From: Exiguobacterium sp.
GTDB taxonomy: Bacteria > Bacillota > Bacilli > Exiguobacteriales > Exiguobacteriaceae
Reading direction: 5' to 3'
Length of the DNA stretch: 64,000 bases
Assembly: GCF_020832205.1 (NCBI RefSeq)
Contig: NZ_JAFIFD010000030.1
Span: 1-64,000, forward strand
Shown: piece after piece, positions 61,264-64,000 of the stretch
Layout: each line of letters begins with the position of its first letter
How positions within the stretch are numbered: position 1 is the first letter of the stretch
The notes under the pieces: generated by a model
The model's input: only the letters and a program-made list of their open reading frames with translations
Told to the model about the DNA's origin: nothing
Databases searched by the model: none
Program-made: the position numbers and the translations under genes

Positions 61264-62646
61264 GTGAATACGATCATTAACAGCGTCACAACGTTTTCGG
61301 ATTGGCTATGGGGGGTCCCGATCATCTCATTGCTCGTCTTGTCTGGTATTTTCTTAACGATCAAACTTGGCTTTTTTCAATTTCGATACCCGTTATACAT
61401 ATTGAAGCAAACGTTTGGCAGCGTCTTTAAAAAACCAAAAGGTGAAGGCGACATCAGCCCGAGACAAGCGCTCACATCCGCCTTGTCTTCAACAGTCGGT
61501 GCCGCGAACATTATCGGTGTCCCGGCAGCGATCATGTTCGGGGGACCGGGTGCGATTTTCTGGATGTGGGTCATCGCCGTCGTCGGGATGGCGATCAAGT
61601 TTTCGGAGAGCGTGCTCGCCGTCCGGTATCGTGAGAAAAACGAGGCCGGTGAATTTGTCGGCGGTCCTGTCTACTATATGGCAAAAGGGTTGAAGATGAA
61701 GTGGCTCGCCTCATGGTTCGCCTTCGCCCTCATGATCGAGCTCATCCCGAGCATCATGGTCCAAGGCAACGCCGTCAGCTCAGCCGTCCGTGAAACGTTC
61801 AATGGCGACACGCTCATCACTGGCCTGATTGTCGCCGCACTCGTCAGCCTCATCGTCTTCGGCGGAGTGAAACGAATCGCGAAAGTGACTGAAGTCATCG
61901 TCCCGGTCATGGCTCTCGTGTACGTCGGGGCAGGGTTCATCATCGTCTTGATGAACATGTCTCAAATACCGGAAGTGCTCGCGCTCATCTTCTCATACGC
62001 GTTTCAACCGATGGCCGCACTCGGTGGGTTTGCCGGGGCAGCCGTCGCCGAGACGATTCGCTGGGGCTTCGCCCGCGGACTATATTCGAACGAGGCCGGA
62101 CTTGGTACAGCGCCGATCGCCCATGCGGCTGCCCAGACCGACCATCCGGTGCGCCAAGGGTTTTGGGCCGTCATCGGGATTGTCATCGATACGCTCATCA
62201 TCTGTAGCACGACCGCGTTCGTCGTCTTGTCTTCCGGCGTCTGGACCCGCGATGGTGCGATGAGTGACCCGGCCGCGCTCACGACGATCGCGTTCCGCGA
62301 ATACTTCGGATATACAGGCAGTCTGCTCGTCACAATCTCGCTCATCTTCTTCGTTTTGTCGACGATCATCGTCATCATCTTTTACGGGTCGCGCCAAGCC
62401 GAGTACTTGTTCGGTTTGAAAGCTGGGTTCCTGATGAAAGTCGTCTATATCGCTTCGATCGTCATCGGATCAATCGGTGGGGCGCAAATGATTTGGAACT
62501 TCCTCGACTTGATGCTCGCGATGATCCTCATCCCGAACATGATCGCCGTCTTGCTGCTCAGCGGCGAAGTGAAACGCCTAACGACCGAGTTCTTCACGTC
62601 AGAGCTTTATTATAAGAAAGACGTCGCCGAAGAAAAGGCGTCCTGA
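61264..62646 (+). CDS. Alanine/glycine:cation symporter (AGCS family)
   Basis: 460 aa, about eleven helices. AGCS hallmarks: LTSALSSTVGAANIIGVPAAI near residue 70, GAIFWMWVIAVVGMAIKFSESVLAV, and AETIRWGFARGLYSNEAGLGTAPIAHAAA near 270. Imports alanine or glycine with Na+ or H+. GTG start, AGGAG seven bases upstream. The GC-rich hairpin after the stop (62654-62678, GCTGCC/GGCAGC) has only a weak T tail. The substrate preference cannot be told from sequence. Confidence 0.92.
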   Translation: MNTIINSVTTFSDWLWGVPIISLLVLSGIFLTIKLGFFQFRYPLYILKQTFGSVFKKPKGEGDISPRQALTSALSSTVGAANIIGVPAAIMFGGPGAIFWMWVIAVVGMAIKFSESVLAVRYREKNEAGEFVGGPVYYMAKGLKMKWLASWFAFALMIELIPSIMVQGNAVSSAVRETFNGDTLITGLIVAALVSLIVFGGVKRIAKVTEVIVPVMALVYVGAGFIIVLMNMSQIPEVLALIFSYAFQPMAALGGFAGAAVAETIRWGFARGLYSNEAGLGTAPIAHAAAQTDHPVRQGFWAVIGIVIDTLIICSTTAFVVLSSGVWTRDGAMSDPAALTTIAFREYFGYTGSLLVTISLIFFVLSTIIVIIFYGSRQAEYLFGLKAGFLMKVVYIASIVIGSIGGAQMIWNFLDLMLAMILIPNMIAVLLLSGEVKRLTTEFFTSELYYKKDVAEEKAS

Positions 62647-62687: not shown

Positions 62688-63644
62688 TCAGTCGACTTTC
62701 GCGATGGCACGATGAATTCGTTCAGCCGATGCGTCGAACTGTTTTTGCTCTCCGTCAGTCAAATCAATCTCGATGATCTGACGAATGCCGGTCCGGTCGA
62801 TGAGGGCCGGTACCCCGATATGAAGTCCTGACGCCCCGTACTCCCCATCCAGATGCGCCCCGATTGTGACGACCGAGTTCTCGTTCCGGACGATAGCCCG
62901 GACGATGCGGAGCAGTCCGAGACCGATCGCGTAATAAGCCGCGCTCTTATACTCGATGATCTGATTCGCCGCGTCGCGGACGTCTTGATAGATCGCGTCT
63001 AAGTCTTCTTGGCGATACGAATCGTTCTCTTCAAGCAGCTGCTTCATGGACTTGCCATAAATCCGCGCGTTGTCCCAGGCGACAAAGCCCCCTGCCCCAT
63101 GCTCGCCCATATAATAGACGTGACAGTTGCGCGACGACAAGTCGAAGTACTCGCCGACCTTATAACGCAAGCGCGCCGTATCGAGCACCGTCCCCGATCC
63201 GATGACACGGTGTTTCGGTAAGCCGGACGCTTTCCAGGCGACGTGGGCCATGACGTTGACCGGGTTCGTCGCGACGACGATGATGCCGTCAAAGCCGCTC
63301 GCCATCACTTGCTTCGTCACGTCACGGACGACGAGGGCGTTTTGTTCAGCGAGGTCCATCTGGGTTTGGCCGAGCTTTTGCGCGGCACCGGCCGTGATGA
63401 CGACGATATCCGCGTCACGGCAATCCGTGTAATCTCCTGCCCAAATCCGGACCGGGCTCGGCGCAAACGAGATGCCGTGGTTGAGGTCCATCGCTTCCCC
63501 TTCAGCTTTCGCATGGTTCGAGTCGATTAAGACGAGCTCTTCACAGAGCGCGGCCATCGACAATTGATAGGCGAAACTGATACCGACCCAGCCGGCGCCG
63601 ACGACGGCGATTCTCGTAATGTCTTTTGGATCAATTGTTTCCAT
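62688..63644 (-). CDS. L-lactate dehydrogenase-like protein with altered active site
   Basis: 318 aa of the lactate/malate dehydrogenase superfamily: Rossmann GAGWVGISF, NAD-binding D41, catalytic H182 (GEHG), D155 and R158 (LDTAR) are present, and Q89 at the LDH substrate-specificity position (Gln102) suggests LDH rather than MDH. But the mobile-loop arginine (Arg109 of LDH) is Gln (Q95, GQTQM), the Thr246 position is Ala (A236), and the usual GEHGDS is GEHGAG. These changes predict a different substrate or reduced LDH activity. ATG 63644 fits an RBS AGGGAGG at eight bases. No Rex-like site was seen upstream. Confidence 0.85.
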   Translation of the reverse strand: METIDPKDITRIAVVGAGWVGISFAYQLSMAALCEELVLIDSNHAKAEGEAMDLNHGISFAPSPVRIWAGDYTDCRDADIVVITAGAAQKLGQTQMDLAEQNALVVRDVTKQVMASGFDGIIVVATNPVNVMAHVAWKASGLPKHRVIGSGTVLDTARLRYKVGEYFDLSSRNCHVYYMGEHGAGGFVAWDNARIYGKSMKQLLEENDSYRQEDLDAIYQDVRDAANQIIEYKSAAYYAIGLGLLRIVRAIVRNENSVVTIGAHLDGEYGASGLHIGVPALIDRTGIRQIIEIDLTDGEQKQFDASAERIHRAIAKVD

Positions 63645-63705
63645 ATACATAACCTCCCTAATTGCTTGCTCTCTTTTAGCATACCCGACTCACACGCGTT
63701 TCACG

Positions 63706-63741
63706 ACAAAAAAGACGAACTCCCGCGTACGAGAGTTCGTC
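63706..63741 (-). terminator. sufB terminator
   Basis: Minus strand GACGAACTC...GAGTTCGTC followed by TTTTTTG, same closing type as several other terminators in the window. Confidence 0.85.
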
Positions 63742-63751
63742 CATCCTATGA

Positions 63752-64000
63752 TTATCCGATCGATCCTTCCATCTCAAACTTGATGAGACGGTTCATTTCG
63801 ACAGCATATTCCATCGGTAATTCTTTCGTGAACGGCTCGATGAAGCCCATGACGATCATTTCCGTCGCTTCTTCTTCCGAGATTCCACGGCTCATGAGGT
63901 AGAAGAGTTGCTCTTCTGACACTTTTGAGACTTTCGCTTCGTGCTCGAGTGACACCTGGTCGTTCAAGATCTCGTTGTACGGGATCGTGTCCGACGTCGA
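63752..64000 (-). CDS. sufB: Fe-S cluster assembly protein SufB (3' end only)
   Basis: The last 82 codons run off the right edge of the window; the open frame continues to base 64000. Visible are [71 protein letters not shown], the highly conserved SufB C-terminus (beta-helix end plus GIxExEAxxMIVxGF). Part of the SUF scaffold complex SufBCD. The terminator after it suggests it is the last gene of its operon; the rest would lie to the right. Confidence 0.95.

Follow-up and report, generated by a model that had tools for sequence, protein, structure and literature searches.

Background

Arg109 counts among the textbook catalytic residues of the lactate/malate dehydrogenase (LDH/MDH) superfamily. 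It and Thr246 have been mutated in the laboratory in the LDH of B. stearothermophilus: Clarke et al. in 1986 reportedly made R109Q and found catalysis to be much slower, Wilks et al. in 1988 are said to have shifted specificity from lactate towards malate with each of D197N and T246G, and work by Bur in 1989 reportedly belongs to the same set of mutant studies (R109Q, T246G, D197N). We found no description of an R109Q mutant LDH in the open-access literature.

In the described enzymes, the transition state is stabilized by R109, while R171 holds the carboxylate of the substrate and Q102 serves to recognize pyruvate (PMC9486893). T246, which is unfavourable for oxaloacetate, has been described for all LDHs, while MDHs carry M199 and A/S246; an acid at position 199, which gives charge neutrality on loop closure, has likewise been described as present in all LDHs (PMC9486893). 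Even the hydroxyisocaproate dehydrogenases (HicDHs), whose loops are rebuilt, still keep R109 (PMC4109310; PMC9486893).

In this work, a divergent L-lactate dehydrogenase paralogue was analysed in a window of 64,000 nucleotides from an Exiguobacterium genome, together with its counterparts in related genomes. The name LDHx is our own label for this second LDH homologue of Exiguobacterium. It is, judged by its sequence, an unusual variant of a known family. Like the B. stearothermophilus mutants it is altered at the mobile arginine and at Thr246, but here the changes arose naturally, occur together and have become fixed in a lineage. The close relatives form a natural series, all under purifying selection, from the canonical LDH through LDHx with R109 and an altered pocket to LDHx without R109. 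This series allows direct tests of how an enzyme moves towards a new substrate or becomes a pseudoenzyme, and of whether the mobile arginine is indispensable for LDH chemistry.

Results and discussion

The LDHx gene and its genomic context

The gene and its surroundings in the window comprise the following features.

62688..63644, minus strand: LDHx, divergent L-lactate dehydrogenase paralogue (318 aa, METIDPKD...), with the start placed by RBS spacing and homology
63645..63650, minus strand: alternative upstream start codon of LDHx (MYMETID..., 320 aa), 2 nt past the RBS and less likely
63653..63659, minus strand: ribosome-binding site AGGGAGG, 8 nt ahead of the ATG at 63644
61264..62646, plus strand: AGCS-type Na+/alanine symporter homologue, the convergent neighbour
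63752..64000, minus strand: 3' end of sufB (suf Fe-S operon), the neighbour upstream of LDHx on the same strand

Read from the first ATG the open reading frame spans 62688-63650 (320 aa), and from the second 62688-63644 (318 aa). The second ATG (63644) is preferred because of its 8-nt spacing from AGGGAGG and its agreement with the coordinates and residue numbering of an earlier, sequence-only reading of this DNA. The names AGCS and sufB are ones that we presume from the sequences of the two neighbours.

The position of the locus is constant in every genome whose context was read, with the suf operon on one side and the genes for AGCS, acylphosphatase, BrnQ and an MFS protein on the other. In two checked genomes of the sister genus (L111, L112), the interval from sufB to a DUF72 gene does not contain the block LDHx-AGCS-acylphosphatase-brnQ-MFS. 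The AGCS homologue belongs to this genus-conserved context. Deducing the function of LDHx from the neighbouring AGCS and BrnQ transporter genes was rejected as an argument from proximity alone, and the AGCS gene is missing in one genome; none of the neighbours points to a substrate. In that relative (L096, G003), LDHx adjoins the acylphosphatase gene, and in the other genomes read the AGCS gene follows LDHx.

Duplication within the Exiguobacterium LDHs

The genome, of 2.78 Mb, belongs to Exiguobacterium; among its close matches that bear a species name are E. alkaliphilum, E. chiriqhucha, E. aurantiacum and E. qingdaonense. A search for a canonical ldh elsewhere in it, as the sequence-only reading had advised, recovered a gene whose product is 64% identical to LDHx and carries GETRLDL, GATYY and GEHGDTE; LDHx is therefore an extra copy. 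The mdh gene is separate again, and its product is 35% identical to LDHx. All three genes (canonical ldh, mdh and LDHx) occur in 19/19 genomes of the genus-level clade of the window. Each of the 19 genomes of the sister clade has a single LDH and none has LDHx; the 15 LDHs sampled from this clade are all canonical.

In the phylogeny, LDHx forms one clade inside the Exiguobacterium LDHs with a support of 100, and this nesting identifies it as a duplicate, not as an import from another family. Its stem branch is long (0.66-0.77). Duplication before and after the split from the sister genus both fit the data (support 65/31, p-AU 0.42).

Substitutions at catalytic and specificity positions

LDHx was aligned with 62 canonical LDHs, 19 and 15 of them from Exiguobacterium and 28 from other Bacilli. 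From all 62 it differs by R109Q, D197A, T198G, E199G, T246A and D143N, the last of these turning NPVD into NPVN; both R109 and T246 are present in 62/62. Against the LDHs of B. stearothermophilus, B. subtilis and B. cereus, GETRLDL is replaced by GQTQMDL, GATYY by SAAYY, and GEHGDTE by GEHGAGG. The altered segments lie at approximate codon coordinates as follows.

63352..63387, minus strand: mobile-loop segment AAQKLGQTQMDL, in which Gln95 occupies the Arg109 position and Gln89 corresponds to Gln102
63076..63108, minus strand: GEHGAGGFVAW, in which His182 (H195) is kept and D197A, T198G and E199G are found
62923..62955, minus strand: EYKSAAYYAIG, in which Ala236 occupies the Thr246 position

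Other functional residues are retained: H195 (His182), D168 (Asp155), R171 (Arg158), N140 and Q102. The alignment thus bears out the earlier assignments of Gln95 and Ala236 to the Arg109 and Thr246 positions and of H182, D155 and R158 to the kept catalytic residues. The change that had been read as GEHGDS to GEHGAG is real as well, and the stretch in fact holds three substitutions (D197A, T198G, E199G), while D143N had been missed. The same reading had raised the possibility of another arginine in the loop, and none was found in the LDHx segment: its sole basic residue is the conserved Lys90, and the nearest arginine after the loop lies at least 12 residues further, in helix C. Sequencing error is ruled out for R109Q, which is carried by 13/13 genomes of one subclade.

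Comparison of the 19 LDHx copies resolves the order of these changes. T246A, E199G and E107Q are common to all copies (19/19). R109Q, D197A, T198G and D143N are found only in the 13-genome subset that includes the window, and the other six copies keep R109, D197, T198 and D143. LDHx was remodelled in two steps: the pocket changed first, and the catalytic arginine was lost later. Across both groups (13/13 R109Q and 6/6 R109 copies), the catalytic dyad, R171, N140, Q102, the NAD site (G16/G18/G21, D41) and R173/H188 are invariant. Losses at canonical-conserved columns of LDHx are not significantly concentrated in the active-site segments (11/41 vs 10/70, Fisher p = 0.13).

A scan of 398 Bacillota genomes with a degenerate nucleotide pattern that allows Lys, Gln or Glu at position 109 matched an LDH only in the window; the pattern requires the local motif and could miss loops that differ from it. 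Four further matches were discarded as not LDH, and their number equals the chance rate given by the reversed pattern.

As a separate observation, both LDHs of Exiguobacterium appear to have Ala, in the segment IWAGDY, where allosteric LDHs have His68; this replacement may affect allostery by fructose 1,6-bisphosphate (FBP).

Fold and family membership

An AlphaFold2 model of LDHx built from 40 aligned sequences reached a pLDDT of 93.6 and a pTM of 0.91 (pLDDT 68 with 12 sequences only). The best structural match of this model is 1ldn, the ternary complex of B. stearothermophilus LDH (Z 47.8, rmsd 1.4 A over 314 residues), and the modelled LDH fold is intact. The nearest solved relatives are Bacillus LDHs, at ~50% identity. 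Both Pfam domains, Ldh_1_N and Ldh_1_C, were found. LDHx scores above the cut-offs of the NCBIfam L-LDH models over its full length (404.5 bits vs 339 for PRK00066; 360.5 vs 303.55 for TIGR01771) and below those of the MDH models (202.7 vs 351.85 bits for TIGR01763; 264.1 vs 283 for PRK06223).

The residues that distinguish the members of the superfamily give a mixed picture. Among those expected of an L-LDH, His195-Asp168, Arg171 and Gln102 are invariant in 19/19 LDHx copies, whereas Arg109 is Gln in 13/13 copies of the window subclade and Thr246 and acidic 199 are Ala246 and Gly199 in all 19. The rule of an acid at 199 is not absolute, as two of the 28 outgroup LDHs have Gln there. In comparison with the canonical Bacillota L-LDH, LDHx shares the fold, the NAD site, the His195-Asp168 couple, Arg171, Asn140, Gln102 and R173/H188, but differs by its six substitutions (R109Q, D197A, T198G, E199G, T246A, D143N), by another type of promoter, and by being always a second copy. 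The type 3 LDH-like MDHs and the MDH/LDH intermediate group resemble LDHx in a non-acidic residue at 199 and in Ala246 (M199 and A/S246 in MDH); however, LDHx has Gln, not the Arg of MDHs, at 102, lacks R109 and is nested in Exiguobacterium LDH. HicDHs are also LDH-superfamily enzymes with the loop or pocket altered for larger 2-oxo acids, but they possess R109, carry insertions in the loop and have neither Gln nor Arg at 102 (PMC4109310), while LDHx has no loop insertion, Gln102 and Gln109.

By descent and predicted fold, LDHx is a member of the L-LDH family that departs from it at residues described as universal (R109, T246 and the acid at 199). Since these are missing, its annotation as a proven lactate dehydrogenase is not warranted. 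The models TIGR01771 and PRK00066 nevertheless label it L-lactate dehydrogenase, although its activity on pyruvate is doubtful, which serves as a warning for annotation.

Selection on LDHx

Pairwise dN/dS (NG86 medians) is 0.059 in the R109Q group, 0.031 in the R109 group and 0.015 for canonical ldh, at synonymous divergences of 0.65 to 1.35 in these comparisons and near 0.9 for the R109Q group. LDHx is thus under clearly purifying selection, weaker than that on canonical ldh (dN/dS ~fourfold higher). That the gene is intact and not a decayed copy, as had been proposed from its sequence, agrees with this selection, with the uninterrupted reading frame and with the AGGGAGG placed 8 nt from the start.

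These data bear on the explanation of LDHx as a redundant paralogue in slow, late-stage decay under relaxed selection. The long stem branch, the raised dN/dS and the loss of catalytic residues one by one would all be expected of such a gene. However, a dN/dS as low as 0.059 at this synonymous divergence, the lack of any frameshift or stop in 19/19 genomes, the fixation of the substituted catalytic positions in 13/13 copies and the conserved position of the locus argue against decay, which we consider very improbable.

Upstream elements and expression

A promoter-like block precedes the gene.

63681..63704, minus strand: GTGAAA-N12-GGGTAT, with a sigma-B-like -10 element (GGGTAT) at 63681-63686 and a weak -35 element

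The 11-base sequence GGGTATGCTAA precedes the assigned LDHx start by 36 to 45 bases in 9/13 R109Q copies and 6/6 R109 copies, and it occurs upstream of canonical ldh in 0/19. The GGGTAT element is possibly of the sigma-B type; a sigma-A reading (TATGCT) of the same block is also possible. The genome contains sigB (413.6 bits vs a cut-off of 315), and GTTTAA-N13-GGGAAT is found upstream of its rsbV. Genome-wide, the exact sigma-B consensus is not enriched (15 occurrences vs 18 in the reversed control), so that the sigma-B assignment for LDHx draws on conservation only. The upstream region of canonical ldh carries TTGTGAATGATGTTACAA instead (L002). We take this sequence to resemble a Rex site. 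The two genes are probably controlled differently.

A difference in control could in itself account for the second copy, if LDHx were an ordinary stress-time LDH isozyme that reduces pyruvate with lowered activity and is kept for its sigma-B type promoter. The conserved GGGTAT element and the presence of sigB are consistent with such a role, as are the scores above curated L-LDH cut-offs and the retained pyruvate specificity residue Gln102. On the other hand, T246 and the acidic residue at 199 are missing in every LDHx copy and R109 in 13/19, and four copies lack the promoter element, so that we judge an ordinary isozyme improbable.

Function of LDHx

Probably LDHx either catalyses slowly, on a 2-oxo acid other than pyruvate, or serves as a helper protein that binds NAD. 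We tentatively favour the former, at a little under even confidence: a slow, specificity-shifted NAD-dependent 2-hydroxyacid dehydrogenase. Its catalysis, its slowness and its class of substrate are inferred. After duplication of the Exiguobacterium L-lactate dehydrogenase, T246A and E199G, with E107Q in the loop, made the pocket larger and less negative in every copy while R109 was kept; R109Q, D197A, T198G and D143N then followed in the lineage of the window. Hydride transfer would depend on NADH, with His195 as the acid/base and Arg171 holding the carboxylate, and would be slow because the polarization of the carbonyl by Arg109 has no replacement. As acids are lost at 197 and 199 and a base at 109, the pocket should be about one charge more positive than that of LDH, and a larger and/or more anionic 2-oxo acid would be favoured over pyruvate. 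Residues 199 and 246 distinguish LDH from MDH, and their alteration fits a changed 2-oxo acid specificity; action on a bulkier or differently charged 2-oxo acid, as suggested in the sequence-only reading, is plausible. The copies that retain R109 look like an active, specificity-shifted intermediate.

The title of that reading, which names a possibly new 2-hydroxyacid dehydrogenase, goes beyond the evidence; the loss of R109 equally fits a very slow enzyme and a non-catalytic protein. R109 has its part in stabilizing the transition state and persists even in HicDH, so its loss may have ended useful catalysis. The main rival explanation is a pseudoenzyme: a folded LDH-type subunit that binds NAD(H) and perhaps FBP, and that forms mixed tetramers with the canonical LDH or modulates it, or else acts as an NADH- or FBP-responsive protein. 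Such a protein could dispense with the transition-state arginine, D197, T198, E199, T246 and D143, all of them lost, while its NAD site and R173/H188 stayed invariant; the fold is predicted to be kept, and every genome with LDHx also encodes a canonical LDH. Conversely, His195, Asp168, Arg171 and Asn140 would be dispensable for pure binding, yet they are kept. The persistence of these residues and of Gln102 is weak evidence for an enzyme, since the R109Q group is invariant at 76% of its alignment columns; the lack of a significant concentration of losses in the active site and the ~fourfold higher dN/dS also count against the favoured reading. The promoter type, unlike that of canonical ldh, does not indicate co-expression of the two. 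On balance, we regard the pseudoenzyme as possible but doubtful.

A more specific form of the favoured dehydrogenase reading is that LDHx is a natural LDH-derived dehydrogenase without the mobile-loop arginine, acting on an anionic or bulky 2-oxo acid in a charge-compensated pocket, with R109 and D197 lost together after the earlier loss of E199. We consider this form unlikely. If it were true, nature would have made, and kept, the very R109Q change that engineers used to define LDH catalysis.

An R109Q copy in an R109-type genome

E. qingdaonense groups with the R109 genomes by its canonical ldh (100/99), its brnQ (100/98) and its AGCS gene adjacent to LDHx (100/100). Its LDHx is of the R109Q type (100/100), with a mean identity of 87% to the R109Q group and 80% to the R109 group, and the LDHx gene tree is in conflict with the ldh, brnQ and AGCS trees (loci compared: L028, L014 and L058). 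Recombination probably brought the R109Q gene into this genome, in which case one breakpoint would fall within the short LDHx-AGCS gap; alternatively, the pattern could stem from an ancestral polymorphism. On the other side of LDHx lies an insertion hot spot with a defence-type cassette, with which the gene possibly hitch-hiked. The E. qingdaonense copy suggests the spread of an intact, kept gene.

Genus-wide, the gap that separates sufB from LDHx (63650-63752) is a hot spot for insertions, and it is empty in the window itself. Its cargo in the relatives includes a Hen1/Pnkp RNA-repair pair (L012), an ABC-3C middle component with a Lamassu LmuB-like ATPase (L014), LVIVD-repeat and DUF6678 genes (L009), and an alpha/beta hydrolase (L096); L016 was a further locus compared.
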